Shown one piece after another: positions 6,699-16,102 of a DNA stretch of 21,264 nt. Within the stretch, counting starts at the first letter, position 1. Each line of letters begins with the position of its first letter. The notes under the pieces were generated by a model. That model saw only the letters and a program-made list of their open reading frames with translations, ran no database searches and had not been told where the DNA came from. This DNA is from a virus, in the IMG/VR virus record IMGVR_UViG_3300031658_000170, positions 1 through 21,264 of that record; one strand, written 5' to 3'. Position numbers and translations under genes: made by a program.

Positions 6699-7463
6699 AT
6701 GCCTTTATTAGCTACAAGAGCAGCAGGTTCAGCAAGAGGATTTGGATTTGCTGGAGGTAGTTTAAAATTTATGATTGCAACTGGTGGAACTATTACTCAA
6801 GATGGATCCTATCAAGTACACACATTTACTTCAGGTGGAACATTCGAAGTAACTCAATTAGCAACAGACCCTGCTAATGACGTAATTCAATATTTATTAT
6901 CTGCCGGTGGCGGCGGAGCAGGAAGCAATGGATCTAGTGGTTTATGGGGAGCAGGAGGTGCGGGTGGTTGTAAAACTGAATCTGGCCGACCTGTATCTGC
7001 AACAACTTACCCAGTAAGTGTAGGAGGAGGCGGAGGACATGGCGGTGCTGGTGGTTCATCTTCTTTTTATAGTCAAACAGGTAATGGCGGAGGTCGAGGC
7101 GGCGGACAAGATCAAGGTGGAGTATCGGGTGGTTCTGGCGGTGGCGGCGGTATGGGCTCAGGCTCAGGCGGTGGCGGCGGTCAAAGTGGCTTTGGAAATC
7201 CAGGCGGTTCTGGCGGAAGTGGTTGGTCATATTCTGGAGGTGGCGGTGGTAAAAATGGTGGCGGCGGAAGTAGTCCTAAAGCTGGTGGAGCAGCATTACC
7301 TTCTTCAATCTCAGGATCAACTGAAAATTATTCAGGTGGTGGCGGCGGAGCACCTGGTGGGCCTTCAACTAGCTGTATTGCTGGAAAAGGACAAAATGGT
7401 GGATCAAGTTCTCCAGGACAAGCGGGAAGAGTTGTTATTAGATATCAATATGCGAAATTATAA
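6699..7463 (+). CDS. Glycine-rich adhesin / fibre tip protein
   Basis: A 254-residue protein with an excellent ribosome binding site (AAGGAG 6687-6692, six bases before ATG). After a short leader (MPLLATRAAGSARGFGFAGG), residues 25-70 form a beta segment, YQVHTFTSGGTFEVTQLATD, that resembles the start of glycine-rich phage domains. From residue 70 nearly to the end, Gly makes up most positions, in runs of three to six broken by Ser, Ala, Asn and Gln. The protein ends GRVVIRYQYAKL. Polyglycine blocks of this kind build the layered polyglycine-helix core of phage adhesins such as S16 gp38, with specificity loops between. It is probably a receptor-binding tip. The DNA is locally GC-rich (many GGC/GGT codons), unlike its neighbours. 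Confidence 0.75.
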   Translation: MPLLATRAAGSARGFGFAGGSLKFMIATGGTITQDGSYQVHTFTSGGTFEVTQLATDPANDVIQYLLSAGGGGAGSNGSSGLWGAGGAGGCKTESGRPVSATTYPVSVGGGGGHGGAGGSSSFYSQTGNGGGRGGGQDQGGVSGGSGGGGGMGSGSGGGGGQSGFGNPGGSGGSGWSYSGGGGGKNGGGGSSPKAGGAALPSSISGSTENYSGGGGGAPGGPSTSCIAGKGQNGGSSSPGQAGRVVIRYQYAKL

Positions 7464-7465
7464 TT

Positions 7466-7879
7466 ATGGTTTATTTTATAGAAATTAACGATTCAAATAT
7501 AGTAGTTGACCTAACTATTTGGGAAGATAGTATTTTAGGAGATCCTTCATCAGAACAAAATGGAAAAAATTATTTAGCTAATTTTTTTAGTAAATCAGCA
7601 GACAAGTTTGTACAAGCTTTTCAAGATGGAACTAGAAAACAATATCCGGGAGTTGATTGTACGTGGGATGCAGCAAATAATGTTTTTATTTTACCAAAAC
7701 CTTTTACGTCTTGGACACTAGACCCTAACTATGATTGGCAACCTCCTGTAGCAAATCCAAATACTGAAGGTTATGAAACAAGGTGGAATGAAGGTTTATT
7801 GACTTGGGATGGTTTAAAACTATCTGATAATACAGAATGGGTATGGAATACTACTACTAACGAGTGGGATTCAGTATAA
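7466..7879 (+). CDS. Small fibre-associated / assembly protein
   Basis: A 137-residue protein starting three bases after the adhesin stop. No clear ribosome binding site is visible, so translational coupling is likely. N-terminal strands (MVYFIEINDSNIVVDLTIWE) are followed by helices and then FILPKPFTSWTLDPNYDWQP then PVANP, and WNEGLLTWDGLK, ending with WVWNTTTNEWDSV. The P-K-P-(F/Y)-x-S-W-T-L-(N/D)-x-x-x-x-x-W-x-x-P-V-x-x-P pattern is one I recall from small proteins next to fibre genes in marine myoviruses and podoviruses. Its role there is not established; it may cap the fibre or help its folding. It is Trp-rich and has no catalytic motif. It is the last gene before the accessory island. 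Confidence 0.7.
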   Translation: MVYFIEINDSNIVVDLTIWEDSILGDPSSEQNGKNYLANFFSKSADKFVQAFQDGTRKQYPGVDCTWDAANNVFILPKPFTSWTLDPNYDWQPPVANPNTEGYETRWNEGLLTWDGLKLSDNTEWVWNTTTNEWDSV

Positions 7880-7924: not shown

Positions 7925-8542
7925 ATGAATTTAAAAAATACTTTTTGGTTTTTTGAAAAAGCTTTAACACCAGAATTTTGTGATAAAATAATAAAATTAG
8001 GTATTAAAAAAAATCCTAGTTTAGGTGTTATCAACAAATATCAAAATAAAAAAATTACTTCTAAAGATTTAAAAGATTTAAAAAAGACTAGAAATTCAAA
8101 TACTGCTTTTATAGATGATGCAGAATTATATAAAAAAATAGATGAACTTTTTTTAGTTGCAAATCGTAATGCTGGTTGGAATTTTGATTTTAACTATTAT
8201 GAATCGACTCAATTTACTGTTTATAAAAAAGGTCAACATTATAATTGGCATGCAGACAGCAATGGTGAAACATATTCAATAGACAGTGGTCCAAGTTTTA
8301 AAGGGAAAATTAGAAAACTTTCTGCAACAATAGCTTTAAATGATTCTAAAGAATATAAAGGAGGTGATTTTTTAATTGATGATTCAAATCCTTTAAAGAA
8401 AAAAATATATAAAGTGCCGGCATTAAAAAATAAAGGTTCTGTTGTTGTGTTCCCATCACATTTACACCACAAAGTATCTCCTGTTACAAAAGGAACTAGA
8501 TATTCTTTAGTTATATGGGCATTAGGTTTTCCATGGCGCTAG
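7925..8542 (+). CDS. 2-oxoglutarate/Fe(II) oxygenase, prolyl-4-hydroxylase type
   Basis: A 205-residue protein with the full double-stranded beta-helix signature. The iron ligands are His109 and Asp111 in HYNWHADSNGE and His182 in HHKVSPVTKGTRYSLVIW, and Arg192 is placed to bind 2-oxoglutarate. KIRKLSATIALND then EYKGGDFLIDD is the usual central strand pair. Enzymes of this type hydroxylate an unactivated carbon of a protein or small molecule using O2 and 2-oxoglutarate. Related genes are common in T4-like cyanophages, where the substrates are mostly unknown. The start has no ribosome binding site but follows a candidate -10 box closely. The end overlaps the next oxygenase by ten bases. Its place among fibre genes makes a virion protein a plausible substrate, which is inference. 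Confidence 0.87.
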   Translation: MNLKNTFWFFEKALTPEFCDKIIKLGIKKNPSLGVINKYQNKKITSKDLKDLKKTRNSNTAFIDDAELYKKIDELFLVANRNAGWNFDFNYYESTQFTVYKKGQHYNWHADSNGETYSIDSGPSFKGKIRKLSATIALNDSKEYKGGDFLIDDSNPLKKKIYKVPALKNKGSVVVFPSHLHHKVSPVTKGTRYSLVIWALGFPWR

Positions 8543-9129
8543 TAAAATATAAGATAATTAAAAAGGCTATTACTAAAGACCTTGCTGAATTTTGTTTTAA
8601 CTATTTTAATTTAAAAAAACAAGTAACAGATAATTTATTTTCAACTAATTTTTTACCCAAAGATACTACCTTGTTTGGAACTTATGACGATCAACAAGTA
8701 CCAAATACATATTCTCATTATGCTGATTTAGTGATGGAAACTTTATTATTAAAGTGTCAAGAAAAAATAGAAAAACAAATAAAAATAAAAATACAGCCTT
8801 CTTATTCTTATGCACGAATATACAAAAAGGGGGATGTTTTAAAAAAACATAGAGATAGATTTAGTTGTGAGCTTTCAACTACTTTAAATCTAGGGGGATC
8901 TCCATGGCCTATATATCTTAAAGATAAAAAAACAATTAAAGTTGATCTAAAACCAGGGGATATGTTATTTTATAGAGGTTGTGAACTAGAGCATTGGAGA
9001 AATAAATTTCAAGGGAGTAATTGTACTCAAGTATTTTTACACTATAATCAATTTACAAAAGATTCAATATATAATATATATGATGGAAGACCAATGCTGG
9101 GATTTCCATCAGAATTGAAAAAAATATGA
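8533..9129 (+). CDS. 2-oxoglutarate/Fe(II) oxygenase, second type
   Basis: A 198-residue protein. I chose ATG 8533 (MALVKYKIIKKAITKDLAEF) over 8515 because homologs I recall start at KYKIIKKAI and the overlap with the upstream gene shrinks to ten bases. Conserved segments are QVPNTYSHYADLVMETLL, PSYSYARIYKKGDVLKKHRD, LNLGGSPWPIYL and KPGDMLFYRGCELEHWR. The likely iron ligands are His106 and Asp108 (H-R-D) and His154. The family is widespread in marine phages and clearly differs from the first oxygenase. The reaction is expected to be hydroxylation with an unknown substrate. It ends in an ATGA overlap with the next gene, so the three plus-strand island genes are translated as a unit. Confidence 0.85.
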   Translation: MALVKYKIIKKAITKDLAEFCFNYFNLKKQVTDNLFSTNFLPKDTTLFGTYDDQQVPNTYSHYADLVMETLLLKCQEKIEKQIKIKIQPSYSYARIYKKGDVLKKHRDRFSCELSTTLNLGGSPWPIYLKDKKTIKVDLKPGDMLFYRGCELEHWRNKFQGSNCTQVFLHYNQFTKDSIYNIYDGRPMLGFPSELKKI

Positions 9130-9599
9130 AAATAAAACTATTACAACCAAAACTACATACTTCTCCTTTTTCTTTTTTCTTTAGATTTTTTATAGGTATT
9201 AAAAAAATAAAATCTAAAATAACTAATATTGATGATGATTTTGAATTTGAATTAAGAAAAGTTTTTACAGAATATTGCACAGCGATAAAAATTGTTCCTG
9301 AAACATGTTATTATCAAATAACTAAAAAATCTAGTAAAGCTGATATCAATGAATGGTCTTATTTAAAAGGTGTACTTAATTTAGACAGTAATGGCGAAAC
9401 AATATTTAAAACACCTTTTACTTTTAATGGTAAGTATTGTGACGTTAAAATTAAAAATAAAAAAAATCAAGTATTAATTTGTGAAGAAAATTTAAATGTT
9501 CAAACAAAAGGAAAAAATATTTATTTTAATTTATTTTTTCATAAAAACCCAAAACATAAAAAGGGTAAGTTATTAATTGATTTAAGTTCTGGTGATTAA
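9126..9599 (+). CDS. Unrecognised island protein (157 aa)
   Basis: Starts within the stop of the oxygenase gene (ATGA). The N-terminus is basic with a Phe-rich stretch (SPFSFFFRFFIGIKK), not long enough for a sure membrane span. The middle reads EFELRKVFTEYCTAIKIVPE, and a later part, WSYLKGVLNLDSNGETIFK, has the strand and turn pattern of an oxygenase-like beta-helix (compare GETILF in the minus-strand oxygenase). However, no H-x-D pair is present, so if related it is not an active iron enzyme of that class. It is Lys/Asn/Ile-rich like the rest of the island. Possible roles are a partner or substrate-recognition subunit of the oxygenases; I cannot name a function. Its TAA shares the TTAA at 9596-9599 with the stop of the opposing gene. 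Confidence 0.6.
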   Translation: MKIKLLQPKLHTSPFSFFFRFFIGIKKIKSKITNIDDDFEFELRKVFTEYCTAIKIVPETCYYQITKKSSKADINEWSYLKGVLNLDSNGETIFKTPFTFNGKYCDVKIKNKKNQVLICEENLNVQTKGKNIYFNLFFHKNPKHKKGKLLIDLSSGD

Positions 9600-10117
9600 T
9601 TAAAAGTATAAACTAGAACTACTCTCCTACCTTCTTTAGGTGAAATGCCAACATGCCAGCACTTAGGGAAACTAACAGCTCTAAATTGTTTTGATTTTAT
9701 TTTTTTTATTATTGTTTTTTTATTGTCTTTAAATAAAATAGTTTCACCTTCTTTGTTATCTGTTAGATATATAAGTAAATGATTATAATCACACTCATGA
9801 TCAATATGCATAAAAGATTTATTTTTTTGAGCAAAATTAGTATTAATGCAACATCTAAGTATTTTTTTATATTTGATTTTATTTTTTTTACAAAATTTAT
9901 TTAATAGTGAGATACAAAAAGAACTGAGATAAGAATTGTGTCTACCTCCTTCTTCTATTCTGTCAATTACACTATGAGAATAAAACCAATAACCATCTCC
10001 TGAAACAGCATCTTTGTTATAATACCAAGGGAAGTCATATTTTAAAATTGTATCGTCTATATAATTTATTTCTTTTTTACTTAAAAAATTATCTGTAATT
10101 AAAATTGGATATTTCAT
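9596..10117 (-). CDS. 2-oxoglutarate/Fe(II) oxygenase, third type (minus strand)
   Basis: A 173-residue protein. The metal site is visible as FMHIDHECDYNHLLIYLTD with His104 and Asp106, and FPKCWHVGISPKEGRRVVLV with His155. Arg164 or Arg165 is well placed for the 2-oxoglutarate carboxylate. GETILFKDN supplies the central turn. The compact size and the H-I-D then H-x-x-x-x-P pattern resemble short oxygenases of cyanophages. It starts 29 bases inside the end of the halogenase-like gene, so the two form a minus-strand operon. A GGGAG sequence, read on the minus strand, lies about 12 bases upstream. A joint role with the halogenase on the same product is a reasonable guess, without direct evidence. 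Confidence 0.82.
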   Translation of the reverse strand: MKYPILITDNFLSKKEINYIDDTILKYDFPWYYNKDAVSGDGYWFYSHSVIDRIEEGGRHNSYLSSFCISLLNKFCKKNKIKYKKILRCCINTNFAQKNKSFMHIDHECDYNHLLIYLTDNKEGETILFKDNKKTIIKKIKSKQFRAVSFPKCWHVGISPKEGRRVVLVYTFN

Positions 10118-11237
10118 TTTTTTTAGTTACTCCCTCTTTCCATAAATTTATGTTCCATGTTTCCCATTGAGCATATTCAATATCGTTATTAGTTATGCTT
10201 CTTAAATAAGATTGTTTTTTATTTTTCATATTCTTTAAAATTAAATCTAAATCTCTACCTCTATTATTTTTTGAAAGTTTTTTAGCATATGTCCAAAAAG
10301 GTGTATTATAAGTTGAGCCAGTTTCATAGTGCCATAAAATAAAGTTTTGTATTTTAGTAATATAGTCTTTAATTCTTTTAGTGGAATGATCTAAAGTACA
10401 TGTTTTATCTATAATAGCATCCCAAATATATTGACACCAAACTTGATATGTATTTACAGCAGTAGCCTCCAAAGGCTCTAAAAAGAAAAATCTATTACCA
10501 TTTAATATAACTCTATTATCTATGACGGGATTTTTAACAACATATTGTTCAAAAGGAAAATGTGCGTTTGTTTTTTCTAAACCAAATAATTCTTTAAAAT
10601 TGTCTTCTGCTTTTTTTATTGAAGTAATCTTATCGTTAAAGTTATAACCTAGAGAAACTCTATCCTGTAAGGGAATATAAAAGCACCAACCATCTTTAGT
10701 GGCAATTGTTCTAGTCCAAGTAACATCATCTTGTTTAACAGGTAAAGAACCTAAAACCACATGATTAAGAGGGTTTATAAGTTTATCATAACCTTTAAAT
10801 GATTTTGGAGTTCCCCTACAGTCTATGATATAATCAGAATCTATTTCATCATATGTAACTATATTTTCATCTTTTTCTACAAAATTTACTTTTAAATTAT
10901 CTAATACAAATTTTTGAAATTGTGATGGATTAAAATGCATAGAATATGAACCAAAAGGAAAATGATGCATAATTAATTTATTTTTCTTACCCCAATTTTC
11001 ATACATAATACCAGTCTTTTGTGTATAAGAAAATTTAGATGTTATATCAGCTCCTAGCGCCTGCCAAAGTAATCTAGGTAAAGGTAAAGTTGTAGCTTGT
11101 CCTACAGGAACAGGTGATATTTTACTATCATGAATAACTTCAATTTCTAAAGGTGTTTTTAAAAATTGACTCCAGTAATGAAAGTGTAATGCGGAAACAC
11201 AACCAGCGTTTCCTCCACCTAAAATAGTTATTTTCAT
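10089..11237 (-). CDS. Flavin-dependent halogenase-like protein
   Basis: A 382-residue protein of the tryptophan-halogenase fold. The N-terminal FAD loop is ILGGGNAGCVSALHF (residues 5-19). PVPVGQATTLPLPRLL (42-57) matches the family's G-x-G-E-A-T segment, with Gln in place of Glu. YTQKTGIMYENW carries Lys74, in the position of the catalytic lysine (Lys79 of PrnA). GWCFYIPLQDRVSLGYNF (183-200) corresponds to the W-x-W-x-I-P fingerprint with Phe instead of the second Trp. FFLEPLEATAVN (251-262) aligns with E-P-L-E-S-T, where Glu257 matches the active-site Glu. It is shorter than PrnA or RebH (over 500 residues). A cyanophage halogenase, VirX1, is known to iodinate. No flavin reductase gene is in view, so reduced FAD would come from the host. 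Halogenation is likely but not certain. Confidence 0.8.
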   Translation of the reverse strand: MKITILGGGNAGCVSALHFHYWSQFLKTPLEIEVIHDSKISPVPVGQATTLPLPRLLWQALGADITSKFSYTQKTGIMYENWGKKNKLIMHHFPFGSYSMHFNPSQFQKFVLDNLKVNFVEKDENIVTYDEIDSDYIIDCRGTPKSFKGYDKLINPLNHVVLGSLPVKQDDVTWTRTIATKDGWCFYIPLQDRVSLGYNFNDKITSIKKAEDNFKELFGLEKTNAHFPFEQYVVKNPVIDNRVILNGNRFFFLEPLEATAVNTYQVWCQYIWDAIIDKTCTLDHSTKRIKDYITKIQNFILWHYETGSTYNTPFWTYAKKLSKNNRGRDLDLILKNMKNKKQSYLRSITNNDIEYAQWETWNINLWKEGVTKKNEISNFNYR

Positions 11238-11246
11238 ATATAAGGC

Positions 11247-11274
11247 ACTATATGCTACAAAAAATAAATTTCAA
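11247..11274 (-). promoter_or_regulatory. Candidate minus-strand promoter of the halogenase/oxygenase operon
   Basis: On the minus strand TTGAAA (plus 11269-11274) and TATAGT (plus 11247-11252) are 16 bases apart, a good sigma70-type pair with only two mismatches in all. The -10 ends nine bases before the ATG at 11237. No Shine-Dalgarno sequence lies between, so the leader would be very short. Confidence 0.5.
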
Positions 11275-11301
11275 GTATGGATTTAATCCAATAGGCTAAT
11301 C

Positions 11302-11330
11302 TTTATAGAAATAAGGTATTAGTGTATAAT
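11302..11330 (+). promoter_or_regulatory. Candidate plus-strand promoter of the nozzle-type gene
   Basis: TTTATA (11302-11307, four of six matches) and a perfect TATAAT (11325-11330) are 17 bases apart. The -10 ends six bases before the ATG at 11337, so transcription would begin at or next to the start codon. There is no usable ribosome binding site: AAGG at 11313-11316 is 20 bases away. With the minus-strand promoter this makes a divergent control region of about 100 bases. Confidence 0.5.
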
Positions 11331-11332
11331 AC
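11316..11332 (+). repeat. Inverted repeat overlapping the -10 box
   Basis: GTATTA (11316-11321) and TAATAC (11327-11332) are perfect inverted copies separated by five bases, and the right arm covers most of the TATAAT box. This is the geometry of an operator for a dimeric repressor. A chance dyad in AT-rich DNA cannot be excluded. Confidence 0.4.
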
Positions 11333-11336
11333 TTTT

Positions 11337-13484
11337 ATGGCTTTAAATTTAATTAATATAAGACCAGGATTTAACAAACAAATTACAGATACTGCTGCTG
11401 AAGGGCAATATGTAGATGGAGATTTTGTAAGATTTCGTTACGGATTCCCTGAAAAAATAGGAGGATGGTCTTCTATTACTTCAGACACTTTAGCCGGTGC
11501 CGTAAGAGCACAGCATCAATGGTCTGATTTAGATGGCAATAGATATGTAGCACTTGGATCTCAAAGAGCATTATATATTTATTATGGAGAAGTATATTAC
11601 GATATTACTCCATTAGAGACAGCGCAAACGGGAGGCACATTCGATACTACTAATACTTCACCAACGGTCACTGTAAACCTAACGGCTCATGGTATGCTTG
11701 CCGGAGACTACTTTACTTTTACAAGTGTGACCGCACCAACTGGTGCAGGATACACTGCAGCTAATTTTACTGATCAAACTTTTGAAGTAATTACTTCCAC
11801 GTTTAATACTTTTACAATAACTATGGCAACTAATGCTGGAGTTACTGTTGCAGCGTCAGGTGCGTGTACTATAAATAGATATGTTAAAGTAGGTCCTATT
11901 GGACAAACAGTTGCTTTTGGATTTGGTACGGCATCTTACGGAGGAGCATCTGGACTTACTACAACTTTAAATGGTGCTTTATTAGACGACACTGCAGGTA
12001 CTGGAGGATCTGGAACTTCTATTACACTTACATCAACAACAGGGTTTCCGACATCAGGAGTAATTAAGGTTGGAGCAGAATTTATTTCTTACACTGGTAT
12101 ATCTACAAATGATCTTACAGGAATTACAAGAGCAGTGGCTGGAACACGATCAGCTCATTCTACTTTAACAGCGGTAGAATACTATACTGCATGGGGCGAA
12201 GCTTCTTTATCTTCTACTGTTACACTAGATCCAGCTAATTGGAGTTTAGATAATTTTGGACAAATACTAACAGCTACTATATTTAAAGGAAGAACTTTTA
12301 CATGGCAGCCTATAAGTAATAATAACGATGCTTTACAGGTTAGGGCAACTCTTATGTCGGGGGCCCCTACTAAAACAGTTGTTTCAATTGTATCAGACAC
12401 GGATAGACATTTTGTACATTTAGGAACGGAAGTAACAATTGGGGATACAACAACTTATGATCCAATGTTAATAAGATTTTCCGACCAAGAAAACTTTAGT
12501 GATTATCAACCGACTTCTATTAATACAGCAGGTACTTTTAGAATAGATGATGGAACTGAAATTGTAGGTGCGGTAAAAGCAAAAGATTATATTTTAATTT
12601 TTACAGATACTGCAGCATATACAATGCAATATGTCGGAGCACCTTTTACTTTTAGTATTAGAAAGGTAGGATCTAATTGTGGTTTAATGAGCCCACATTC
12701 TATGGCTTTTGTAGACGGAGTTGTTTATTGGATGGATGATGCGGGTTCTTTTAATGCTTACAATGGAACAGTTGTTAAAATACCTTGTTCAGTTGAAGAT
12801 TTTGTATTCAATACAACTAACCCAGGAGACTTAGGTTTTAATTATAATGCTGGAAAACTAACTTACGCTAGCCACAATTCATTATTTAATGAAATAAATT
12901 GGTTCTATGCTTCGAGTTCAGCTACTGAAATAGATAGATGTGTTACATATAATTACTCGGAAAAAGTTTGGTATACAAGTTCTTTAGCTAGAACCTCTTA
13001 TTACGATGCTCATTTATTTGATAAACCTTATGCTACTTCTTTTTATGCTACAGGAGTACCTACTTTCCCAGTTATACAGGGAGTGACAAATACTTCTGGA
13101 TCTGCTACATATTGGACACATGAAACGGGAGTGGATCAATTGGATAATGGAACAACTACAGCAATCTCTTCTTATATTGAAACTGGAGATTTTATGATAC
13201 ACGTAGAAGGTGACGGAGAATATTTTACAAAAGTTAGAAGATTTATACCTGATTTTCAAAGATTAGATGGAACTGCAACAGTTACGATTTTATTAAAAGA
13301 CTATCCATCAGATACAGCGGCTAGTTCTTCTTTAGGACCTTTTTCTGTAACCTCAAGTACTCAAAAAATAGACACACGTGCTAGAGGAAGATCAGCTAGT
13401 TTAAAAATAGCTAATCTATCTAGTGGAGAGACTTGGAGATACGGAACTTTTAGAGCGGACATACAACCTGATGGTAGAAGATAA
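11337..13484 (+). CDS. Large tail nozzle / hub protein
   Basis: A 715-residue protein. A GTG at 11322 is in frame, but I chose ATG 11337, since MALNLINIRPGFNKQITDTA matches the N-terminus of this family as I know it. GQYVDGDFVRFRYGFPEKIG then GW is the most conserved early element. A Thr-rich domain of about residues 95-180 follows (TVNLTAHGMLAGDYFTF). Next comes an inserted unit around 220-285 with ISYTGISTNDLTGITRAVAG, and then propeller-like strands (NFGQILTATIFKGRTFTW, DRHFVHLGTEVTIGDTT, AYTMQYVGAPFTFSIRKVGS). These features suit the nozzle or stabilisation protein below the adaptor ring in short-tailed phages, comparable to P22 gp10. It is probably transcribed from its own promoter and is coupled to the next gene by TAATG. 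Confidence 0.72.
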   Translation: MALNLINIRPGFNKQITDTAAEGQYVDGDFVRFRYGFPEKIGGWSSITSDTLAGAVRAQHQWSDLDGNRYVALGSQRALYIYYGEVYYDITPLETAQTGGTFDTTNTSPTVTVNLTAHGMLAGDYFTFTSVTAPTGAGYTAANFTDQTFEVITSTFNTFTITMATNAGVTVAASGACTINRYVKVGPIGQTVAFGFGTASYGGASGLTTTLNGALLDDTAGTGGSGTSITLTSTTGFPTSGVIKVGAEFISYTGISTNDLTGITRAVAGTRSAHSTLTAVEYYTAWGEASLSSTVTLDPANWSLDNFGQILTATIFKGRTFTWQPISNNNDALQVRATLMSGAPTKTVVSIVSDTDRHFVHLGTEVTIGDTTTYDPMLIRFSDQENFSDYQPTSINTAGTFRIDDGTEIVGAVKAKDYILIFTDTAAYTMQYVGAPFTFSIRKVGSNCGLMSPHSMAFVDGVVYWMDDAGSFNAYNGTVVKIPCSVEDFVFNTTNPGDLGFNYNAGKLTYASHNSLFNEINWFYASSSATEIDRCVTYNYSEKVWYTSSLARTSYYDAHLFDKPYATSFYATGVPTFPVIQGVTNTSGSATYWTHETGVDQLDNGTTTAISSYIETGDFMIHVEGDGEYFTKVRRFIPDFQRLDGTATVTILLKDYPSDTAASSSLGPFSVTSSTQKIDTRARGRSASLKIANLSSGETWRYGTFRADIQPDGRR

Positions 13485-14364: not shown

Positions 14365-15309
14365 ATGCAACCATTAGGTGGAACGGAGCTTCAATATGCT
14401 CAGTTATATAAACACGTAGATAATACGTTGTTAGATAAGTTTCAGATAACTACATCTATTCCAGAAAAAATACCTTTATCTAAAGATAAAATTAATATTC
14501 TTTGGGCGCAAAACTCATATGACCAAGGTAATCTGGCTCCATGGTTTAAAGATAAATCTAATCATAACAAATACGATTGGTATGTGTTTAACTCTCATTG
14601 GTGTGCTGAAAAATTTAGAATGGCTTTTGAAGTACCTCCTGAAAAATGTGTAGTTATTAAAAATGCTATAGAGAAATTTGCGGATAAACCTACTCACAAG
14701 AACGGTGATAAAATAAAATTAATATATACATCTACTCCATGGAGAGGATTATCTGTATTACTAGGTGCCATGCAGTTAATTAAAAATCCTTTAATTGAAC
14801 TAGATGTTTATTCATCTACTCAAATATATGGAGATAGTTTTAAAAAAGCTAATGATACCTCTTATCAAGATTTATATGAACAAGCTAAAAAATTACCTAA
14901 TGTAAATTACATAGGCTATGCTTCTAACGAAAAAATAATGAACAAGATGGGAGAGTATAAAATATTTGCTTATCCTAATATATGGGAAGAAACTTCTTGT
15001 ATGTCAGCTATTGAAGCTTTAGGAAGTGGACTTCATGGAATTGTAACTAATTACGGAGCTTTGTTTGAGACGTGTTCAGAGTGGCCAACTTACGTTCAAT
15101 ACGATAGAGATTACAGAAATTTAGCTAAATGTTTTGCTTATGCAATTGAAGGAATTGCAGAACAACTTCATTCAGTAGGAATGCAACAGTTATTAGATTC
15201 TCAAGTATCTTTTTATAAGAAATTTTATAGTTGGGAAAATAGAAAAAACGAATGGACTAACTTTTTACAAGGAGCATATGATTCAAAATCACGAACCAAT
15301 TTGGTTTAA
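14365..15309 (+). CDS. GT-B glycosyltransferase (GT4-like)
   Basis: A 314-residue protein. The N-terminus MQPLGGTELQYAQLYKHV contains the G-G-T-E element usual near the acceptor side of GT4-type enzymes. INILWAQNSYDQ and YDWYVFNSHWCAEKF continue the first Rossmann domain. KLIYTSTPWRGLSVLLGAM begins the donor-binding domain. PNIWEETSCMSAIEALGSG (residues 204-222) holds the E-x7-E motif, Glu209 and Glu217, that contacts the nucleotide sugar. It is somewhat shorter than bacterial relatives. An in-frame stop just upstream of ATG 14365 fixes the earliest start, and there is no ribosome binding site. It overlaps the next glycosyltransferase by 32 bases. The likely job is transfer of a sugar to phage virion protein or host surface; the acceptor is unknown. 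Confidence 0.82.
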   Translation: MQPLGGTELQYAQLYKHVDNTLLDKFQITTSIPEKIPLSKDKINILWAQNSYDQGNLAPWFKDKSNHNKYDWYVFNSHWCAEKFRMAFEVPPEKCVVIKNAIEKFADKPTHKNGDKIKLIYTSTPWRGLSVLLGAMQLIKNPLIELDVYSSTQIYGDSFKKANDTSYQDLYEQAKKLPNVNYIGYASNEKIMNKMGEYKIFAYPNIWEETSCMSAIEALGSGLHGIVTNYGALFETCSEWPTYVQYDRDYRNLAKCFAYAIEGIAEQLHSVGMQQLLDSQVSFYKKFYSWENRKNEWTNFLQGAYDSKSRTNLV

Positions 15310-16102
15310 CGAAGAACCCTCGACACCGGACACTAAGAAAGAAGCAGGCTATTCTTTATTTGTAGCAACACCCGTTCATAGTGAATGTTCTATTCATTAT
15401 GCTCAAGCTTTATTAAATCTACAAAAATATTGTTTTAAAAAGAATGTAAAATTATGGTTTCAAATAATGAAGTCTTCATTAGTTACTCAAGGAAGAAACA
15501 TGTGTGTAAGCGCATTTCTACAACAGAAAGATGCTACTCATTTATTATTTGTTGATTCAGATATTTCTTTTAATGAATCTGCTCCAGAAAGATTAGTTGC
15601 TTGTGATAAGGATGTTATCTCTATTCCATATCCCTTAAAAGATATAAACTGGGATAAGGGAATGCATATGATCAATGAAGGTAAGATTAAAGAAGCTAAA
15701 GATTTAAGAAACAAAGGTTTTTACAGATACCCTATGAAAGTAGAAAATAATTCTGCTATTAAAATTAAAGATGGAGTTATTAAAGTAGAGCATTCTCCAA
15801 CAGGTTTTATGTTAATAAAAAGAGAAGTAATCCTTAAAATGATAAAGGCTTATCCAGAAATGAGAATTGATCAAGACCAAATTATTAATGGTAAGAATGA
15901 AAAACTACCTGATTTTTGGAACTTCTTTGATACTCAATTTGATCCTGTCAAACATACTTACACAGGAGAAGACTTTGCTTTTTGCCAAAGATGGAAAGAC
16001 ATTGGAGGCGAATGCCATGCTTGGATTATGGATCACATAACTCATATTGGAGAACATCAATATACCGGTCGTTTTGCGGATGAGTTGATAAAGACTGACT
16101 AA
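15278..16102 (+). CDS. GT-A fold glycosyltransferase (GT2-like)
   Basis: A 274-residue protein with AAGGAG (15269-15274) three bases before ATG, inside the preceding gene. YSLFVATPVHSECSIHYAQA starts the nucleotide-binding strand. HLLFVDSDISF (residues 88-98) holds the D-x-D metal site, Asp93 and Asp95. VEHSPTGFMLIKREV is the acceptor-side segment, and YTGEDFAFCQRWKDIGGE is the usual E-D-x-x-F-C-x-R-x-x-x-x-G-G block, followed by HITHIGEH, a conserved His-rich end. This type is frequent in T4-like cyanophages. Together with the GT-B enzyme it could add two sugars in turn. The target is probably a virion protein, since the pair lies between tail and internal-protein genes. Confidence 0.82.
   Translation: MIQNHEPIWFNEEPSTPDTKKEAGYSLFVATPVHSECSIHYAQALLNLQKYCFKKNVKLWFQIMKSSLVTQGRNMCVSAFLQQKDATHLLFVDSDISFNESAPERLVACDKDVISIPYPLKDINWDKGMHMINEGKIKEAKDLRNKGFYRYPMKVENNSAIKIKDGVIKVEHSPTGFMLIKREVILKMIKAYPEMRIDQDQIINGKNEKLPDFWNFFDTQFDPVKHTYTGEDFAFCQRWKDIGGECHAWIMDHITHIGEHQYTGRFADELIKTD

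Follow-up and report, generated by a model that had tools for sequence, protein, structure and literature searches.

What do the 2-oxoglutarate (2OG) oxygenases and the halogenases of phages act on? Both kinds of gene abound in marine environments, although we know of no natural substrate for either enzyme type. The question is posed here by a virus sequence of 21,264 bases in IMG/VR (record IMGVR_UViG_3300031658_000170; its full length is referred to as the window), in which five genes lie at positions 7925-11237 between the fibre genes and a nozzle-type gene. They encode three predicted oxygenases (OX1, OX2, and OX3), a conserved protein (UNK), and a short protein of the flavin-dependent halogenase fold (HAL). 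Comparison of the window with related loci shows that the oxygenase set, here with HAL, adjoins a Gly-rich fibre gene and is exchanged with the fibre type across virus backbones and lineages; co-location, block exchange, fibre-type coupling, and the conservation of catalytic residues all emerge from the alignments and trees described below. The features on which the comparison relies are the following.

6699..7463, plus strand: gly6699, Gly-rich fibre/adhesin-type protein, which defines fibre type A; candidate substrate (phrog_2295, 1.1e-21)
7466..7879, plus strand: g7466, Trp-rich small protein after the Gly-rich fibre gene (phrog_7759, 5.5e-17; synteny)
7925..8542, plus strand: OX1, PKHD/prolyl-hydroxylase-like 2OG-Fe(II) oxygenase (PF13640, 2.5e-15)
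8515..9129, plus strand: OX2, likely 2OG-type oxygenase of a family labelled 'ferrochelatase' (phrog_2954, 1.9e-49)
9126..9599, plus strand: UNK, conserved protein without assigned family (homologues in contigs L001, L002, and L006)
9596..10117, minus strand: OX3, short predicted 2OG-type oxygenase of a family labelled 'DNA endonuclease V' (phrog_274, 2.4e-33)
10089..11237, minus strand: HAL, short flavin-dependent-halogenase-fold protein, 382 aa, WxFxIP variant (PF04820, 3.8e-34; phrog_2928, 4.4e-70)
11322..13484, plus strand: nozzle-type virion structural gene, slot boundary and backbone marker (phrog_3287, 4.3e-82)

All five genes proposed by a first-pass annotation of the window are real. 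Their order is conserved in three IMG/VR contigs alone (L001, L002, and L006; 64-86% amino acid identity), in which one or two additional oxygenases stand among the five, and the ratio of nonsynonymous to synonymous polymorphism, determined from counts (pN/pS), is 0.18-0.46 over the island genes, which therefore are all under purifying selection. The annotation had placed the genes inside a tail operon. This holds for OX1, OX2, and UNK, which share the strand of the tail genes, but not for OX3 and HAL (9596-11237), which are encoded on the opposite strand. The GC content of the island is 23-27%, and that of the flanks about 33-40%.

Judged by its syntenic structural module, in which the gene order is the same, and by its nozzle homologue, the window is a fragment of an HTVC023P-type (SAR11-phage-like) podovirus. 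The nozzle-type protein is 58% identical to that of HTVC023P, 50% to that of HTVC027P, and up to 91% to those of uncultured contigs. No PolA gene was recognised within the 21-kb fragment. The Gly_rich_2 family (PF21722) matched gly6699 below the cut-off (E=0.0038) and its homologues in HTVC023P (7.7e-16) and HTVC008M (6.7e-18). The small gene g7466, which is syntenic in type-A loci, HTVC023P, HTVC033P, and HTVC008M, may encode a chaperone or a part of the fibre.

Oxygenases and fibre types in the fibre-to-nozzle slot

The slot was mapped in 80 contigs retrieved by the nozzle gene and 20 retrieved by HAL, as well as in cultured phages, and 2OG genes were counted with iterated profiles (E<=1e-5). 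Two to seven 2OG-type genes were found in 39/39 anchored intervals, i.e., intervals bounded by the upstream structural gene, several of which are near-copies of one another. Oxygenase clusters in the slot are the rule in this virus family. The slot genes vary greatly in number, order, and strand, and three fibre types can be distinguished: the Gly-rich fibre with the Trp-rich g7466 (type A), two proteins of about 146 and 248 aa (type B), and a collar-type fibre with a protein of about 129 aa (type C). The first-pass annotation had suggested searching related phages for co-occurrence of the genes, and for this clade they are not scattered over unrelated places: 49 of the 55 HALs that are at least 46.6% identical to that of the window are no more than 2.5 kb away from a 2OG gene, in keeping with the count for the anchored intervals. 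Among HALs of 37-46% identity, the proportion is 6/34, and many of these genes are located among apparent T4-type head genes.

The relationships of the cassette differ from those of the backbone. In L001, L002, and L006, the nozzle protein is only 39-56% identical to that of the window, yet HAL is 79-86% and OX1 64% identical. Contigs with a nozzle protein 91% identical to that of the window carry type B fibres, and their oxygenases are about 32-38% alike. This mismatch indicates that the fibre and its enzymes have been exchanged as a block.

The coupling was quantified on phylogenetic trees. When the fibre type (A/B/C) of 57 loci was mapped onto the OX2 tree, two changes were required, which is the minimum, whereas a nozzle tree built for these loci required six. 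Shuffled fibre labels required 15.4 changes on average, and 0/200 shuffles were as low; the shuffles show clustering only, which near-copies among the loci raise, and for this reason the contrast between the OX2 and nozzle trees is the stronger point. In an extended OX2 tree that included HTVC033P, HTVC008M, Mosig, Syn10, and Sf-FR1, a branch supported at 100/98 set the OX2 proteins of all sampled phages with Gly-rich fibres apart from the others, although some of the added cyanophage rows are long-branched and their exact placement is less sure. This side of the branch comprises the HTVC023P-type phages, HTVC033P, the T4-like HTVC008M, Mosig, Syn10, and Sf-FR1, and thus covers podoviruses of two types as well as T4-like myoviruses. 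On the other side are types B and C on the window's own backbone, with nozzle proteins up to 91% identical. As far as these trees resolve, the oxygenase tracks the fibre more closely than the virus backbone, and the enzymes very probably form a functional module coupled to the fibre.

Further families were found in the slot. A cryptic PhyH-like family of about 170 aa (23 members, hhalign 86%, e.g., L008:2268-2783) implies that the oxygenase counts at those loci are probably underestimates; its members often come after HAL or g7466. A JmjC_2/cupin protein is located in the slot of L092. In several type-A loci, HAL has as its neighbour a hydrophobic protein of only 116-117 aa that probably resides in a membrane (L003:5363, L005:5210, and homologues in other loci of this type). 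In relatives, carbamoyltransferases (PF16861/PF02543) of two families occur either in the slot of the oxygenases or in that of the glycosyltransferases. The 530-aa form was found at L032:5027, L033:8364, and L034:1418, and the 496-aa form (C496) at L050:7607, L051:4333, and L067:5779. A carbamoyltransferase gene stands beside the first glycosyltransferase gene (GT1) or the nozzle gene in L022, L023, L035, L036, L041, L073, and L076, with C496 adjoining or near GT1 in L022, L035, L041, L073, and L076. The glycosyltransferase slot of relatives takes up oxygenases as well. In the window, two further features flank the nozzle-type gene.

11238..11321, no strand: divergent intergenic gap of 84 bases between HAL (minus) and the nozzle-type gene (plus)
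14365..16102, plus strand: GT1 glycosyltransferase (PF00534, 1.7e-8) and GT2 (phrog_1574), neighbouring variable slot

For GT2, no glycosyltransferase family was significant. Within the gap, diverging promoter-like −35/−10 sites were located at 11274-11247 (minus strand) and 11302-11330 (plus strand), each with 10/12 matching positions; the promoter and terminator scans performed no better than on shuffled sequences, and the total of sites was not above that of the shuffles. The likely start of the nozzle-type gene is ATG 11337 and not GTG 11322; the longer form, read from GTG, overlaps a promoter-like site in its first codons.

Enzymes of the island

The first-pass annotation had described HAL as a halogenase-like flavoprotein, which agrees with the family match and with the predicted structure. 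The AlphaFold2 model (pLDDT 83) gave the Trp halogenases PyrH and PrnA as the top Foldseek matches in the PDB (E about 1e-20). The GxGxxG motif for binding of flavin adenine dinucleotide (FAD) is present, with G7, G9, and G12 invariant in 20 HALs. Also invariant in 20 relatives are K74 and E257, which align with PrnA-type sequences and correspond to the catalytic residues K79 and E346 of PrnA. The WxWxIP motif is replaced by WxFxIP in the window and nearly the whole clade, and by WxFxIH in a few members; because of this replacement, HAL was assigned to a divergent subfamily of proteins like the flavin-dependent halogenases (FDHs) rather than to the canonical Trp halogenases. Also missing from HAL is a large segment that the long form of HTVC008M carries after the Lys region and before the conserved stretch that follows. 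No flavin reductase gene was recognised in the window. Bacterial loci were considered as an origin or context for HAL, and the four distant ones found in metagenome-assembled genomes (37-42% identity), none of them oxygenase-rich, were uninformative.

Of the three H-x-D...H oxygenases that had been proposed, OX1 and OX3 carry the complete signature, whereas the assignment of OX2 is less direct. In OX1, H109-x-D111, H182, and the distal R192 are invariant among 12 relatives, the match to PF13640 is above the cut-off, and the profile matches the PKHD hydroxylase PiuC (8e-9). OX3 displays the motif HID...CWH...RR, i.e., H-x-D...H...R, with matching residues in its three closest orthologues (L001/L002/L006); its sole Pfam match is 2OG-FeII_Oxy_3 (PF13640, E=0.16). 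In OX2, the triad formed by H112-x-D114 and the distal H160 is invariant (16 relatives). No Pfam family was found for OX2 at E<=1 and no significant match in the PDB; a deeper profile gave an hhalign probability of 67% against the OX1 family, while shallow alignments gave nothing. OX2 is, on its conserved residues and this profile match, likely a 2OG-type oxygenase.

The PHROG labels of two of these families were considered and rejected. OX2 has no ferrochelatase Pfam match at E<=1 and carries an HxD...H site, and for OX3, labelled as DNA endonuclease V, the weak match to 2OG-FeII_Oxy_3 is the only one. In many GenBank and PHROG records, families with an HxD...H motif are named 'ferrochelatase' (phrog_2954) or 'DNA endonuclease V' (phrog_274), and both names are probably a propagated misannotation that extends over the whole families.

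UNK is 70-73% identical in L001, L002, and L006 (pN/pS about 0.33) and was seen solely within this cassette among the loci compared. No family match was obtained, the AlphaFold2 model (pLDDT 34) was unusable, and the similarity of the UNK profile to the oxygenase profiles was weak and non-significant.

Settings of phage halogenases and closest known systems

VirX1, the viral halogenase that has been characterised, is encoded in cyanophage Syn10 as CPUG_00131, which matches PDB entry 6qgm over its full length. In Syn10 (HQ634191.1 104000-140000), a pair of Gly_rich_2 fibre genes is followed by the genes for a 164-aa protein, another halogenase, VirX1, and a phrog_7084 protein, and then by about ten genes that include 2OG families, one JmjC_2 protein, and an OX2-like protein. 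Sf-FR1 repeats this layout. The VirX1 locus thus resembles the island of the window in its Gly-rich fibre, small protein, halogenases, and oxygenases, and VirX1 shares with HAL the fold family, GxGxxG, and the catalytic Lys and Glu. It differs in its length of 530 aa and its WxWxIP motif; HAL, with 382 aa and WxFxIP, lacks the large inserted segment, and its activity is predicted. In the summary of a review, VirX1 iodinates many free aromatics in vitro (PMC8407142). The tandem halogenases of Syn10, CPUG_00132 (507 aa) and VirX1, stand between the Gly-rich fibres and the oxygenases. Two halogenases also share a cassette in L134, which holds a short HAL and a separate 490-aa protein of the family (L134:1986, L134:4262). 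A distant HAL clade is located in the same slot in L086/L087/L089, with a 415-aa form in L086/L089. A phrog_7084-type protein of about 250 aa (L041:7856-8602, CPUG_00130, SfFR1_86) links the type-B pelagiphage cassettes with the VirX1 island.

Individually, each of the enzyme types has been published before, and so have the clustering of oxygenases in HTVC023P-type phages (PMC9599517) and a cluster of a halogenase with oxygenases (PMC7824862). The view that no described phage system holds the combination seen in the window therefore has to be abandoned. In jumbo cyanophages, Iyer et al. (2021, PMC7824862) described a cluster of halogenase, 2OG, cupin, and carbamoyltransferase genes, for which a secondary metabolite or capsule decoration was proposed. 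In S-SSM6a (AGH07737-07747), the halogenase and several oxygenases of the double-stranded β-helix fold are clustered immediately downstream of Gly_rich_2 genes and a gene whose product has a domain of tail-assembly chaperones (PF16778); the window likewise has a halogenase-like gene and 2OG oxygenases by Gly-rich fibre genes. Unlike the window with its short HAL, S-SSM6a encodes a full-length halogenase, two carbamoyltransferases, and a methylase; neither a carbamoyltransferase nor an amino-acid methylase was seen in the window. The Gly-rich fibre proteins AGH07731-07733 of S-SSM6a (HQ317391.1 219312-221705) stand out for their high content of Cys, Trp, Tyr, and His.

The second precedent is HTVC008M (KC465899), in which a PhyH gene, a Trp halogenase gene, and five more oxygenase genes are found by the fibre. 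It has the Gly-rich fibre, the g7466 homologue, and OX2 with four further oxygenases on the minus strand, and the PhyH gene lies beside that of the Trp halogenase about 3.5 kb beyond this cluster. In contrast to the window, HTVC008M is T4-like, and its halogenase is of the long form (467 aa) and located outside the oxygenase cluster.

Closest in virus group are the HTVC023P-type pelagiphages of Wittmers et al. (2022, PMC9599517), in which the co-located genes for a 2OG-Fe(II) oxygenase and a 'ferrochelatase' were interpreted as auxiliary metabolic genes acting on host metabolism. The co-located oxygenases are the same as here, and the OX2 family is their 'ferrochelatase' partner. That label was accepted at face value, whereas the family in the window has the HxD...H site and no ferrochelatase Pfam match. 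A search of their text for a halogenase or the term 'tail fiber' gave no mention of either (PMC9599517). The open-access papers examined contained no account of several points made here: that the enzymes are coupled to the fibre type in different virus lineages, that VirX1 stands next to fibre genes, that a clade of short halogenases carries WxFxIP, and that the 'ferrochelatase' label needs correcting.

Hydroxylation of peptides by a virus-encoded 2OG enzyme is on record for the prolyl 4-hydroxylase of PBCV-1 (Eriksson 1999, via PMC9301287); as summarised there, this is a single enzyme of a eukaryotic virus, with no halogenase and no fibre-linked array. During adaptation of the cyanophage S-TIM4 to poor hosts in experimental evolution, the 2OG gene ORF23 was among the few mutated non-structural genes, and most changes were in fibre and baseplate genes (PMC6224464).

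Possible substrates of the module

The first-pass annotation had suggested a tailoring module, and the co-travelling set tied to fibre genes and fibre types is consistent with such a role. On the genomic evidence it is plausible, with a chance slightly below even, that the module acts on the fibre protein itself. Late in infection, the enzymes would act on the Gly-rich adhesin of the new virions or on its partner. OX1-OX3 would hydroxylate side chains in the Gly-rich or loop region by PKHD-like chemistry, as do known peptide and protein hydroxylases, and HAL would halogenate (or oxidise) exposed Trp or Tyr with FADH2 from a host flavin reductase. The adhesin might thereby be stabilised, or the chemistry of its receptor-binding surface widened. 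The PKHD and JmjC_2 families include known protein and peptide hydroxylases. A protein substrate is favoured because of the kinship of OX1 with PKHD enzymes, the recurrent JmjC_2 members, and the shortened, possibly more open HAL.

Several observations weigh against modification of the fibre. Such modification is, so far, a prediction from gene content. Without the second Trp of WxWxIP, HAL might not halogenate. The Trp content of Gly-rich regions beside HAL is raised only slightly (0.58 v 0.34%), with p=0.04 uncorrected over eight non-independent tests and one locus misflagged. Any enrichment of these regions in Trp or Tyr is marginal. The carbamoyltransferases in the slot equally fit sugar or small-molecule substrates, and a hypervariable recombination hot spot could alone make genes co-travel. 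Finally, the halogenases of S-SSM5, S-SSM7 (petE-region copy), P-TIM40, S-PM2, and S-RIM44 are located amid metabolic genes (photosynthesis/nucleotide) and off the fibres, so a fibre link of all phage halogenases is ruled out.

The fibre-type coupling would also be accounted for if the enzymes altered the host surface receptor bound by the co-carried fibre, so that progeny escape debris and rival phages are shut out (superinfection exclusion), since a fibre and enzymes modifying its receptor would travel together. Glycosyltransferases and carbamoyltransferases are found in or near the same slots, and host-recognition clusters of pelagimyophages with glycosyltransferases have been interpreted in this way (PMC7029224). 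By established chemistry, however, there is no obvious glycan target for a halogenase or for PKHD/JmjC-type enzymes, and the oxygenase sets are universal even where a carbamoyltransferase is absent; we consider this explanation unlikely.

Equally unlikely, in our estimation, is that the enzymes make or alter a small molecule, such as a halogenated metabolite derived from an amino acid or a sugar, or draw down 2-oxoglutarate to steer the nitrogen metabolism of the host. Proposals of this kind exist for the S-SSM6a cluster (capsule decoration or secondary metabolite; Iyer 2021, PMC7824862) and for cyanophage oxygenases (2OG/nitrogen role; Sullivan 2010, PMC3037559), and the in vitro range of VirX1, as the review outlines it, covers many free aromatics (PMC8407142). 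Neither a metabolic nor a nitrogen role predicts that the oxygenase subfamily tracks the fibre type across virus lineages, and the genes identified in the window include none for a carrier protein, a synthetase, or a transporter. That the genes are loosely useful cargo gathered at a recombination hot spot by the fibre genes, with the coupling due to hitch-hiking by block exchange, would suit the high variability of the slot and the metaviromic islands of marine phages, which coincide in part with host-recognition genes and for which Fe(II) oxygenases are listed (Mizuno 2014, PMC3909814), but is improbable given that the OX2 coupling holds across virus lineages and deep divergence, that at least two oxygenases are always present, and that the genes are under purifying selection.

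The tie between enzymes and fibre argues against reading these enzymes mainly as host-metabolism genes, and it makes the substrate question directly testable on fibre peptides of a cultured phage. In its widest form, fibre modification by the coupled enzymes would mean that exchangeable, fibre-type-specific modules hydroxylate and halogenate, and in relatives carbamoylate, the phages' own adhesins, and that this is the native role of VirX1-type halogenases, a possibility we advance only tentatively and with considerable doubt. If true, the receptor-binding proteins of marine phages would gain chemistry beyond the 20 amino acids.

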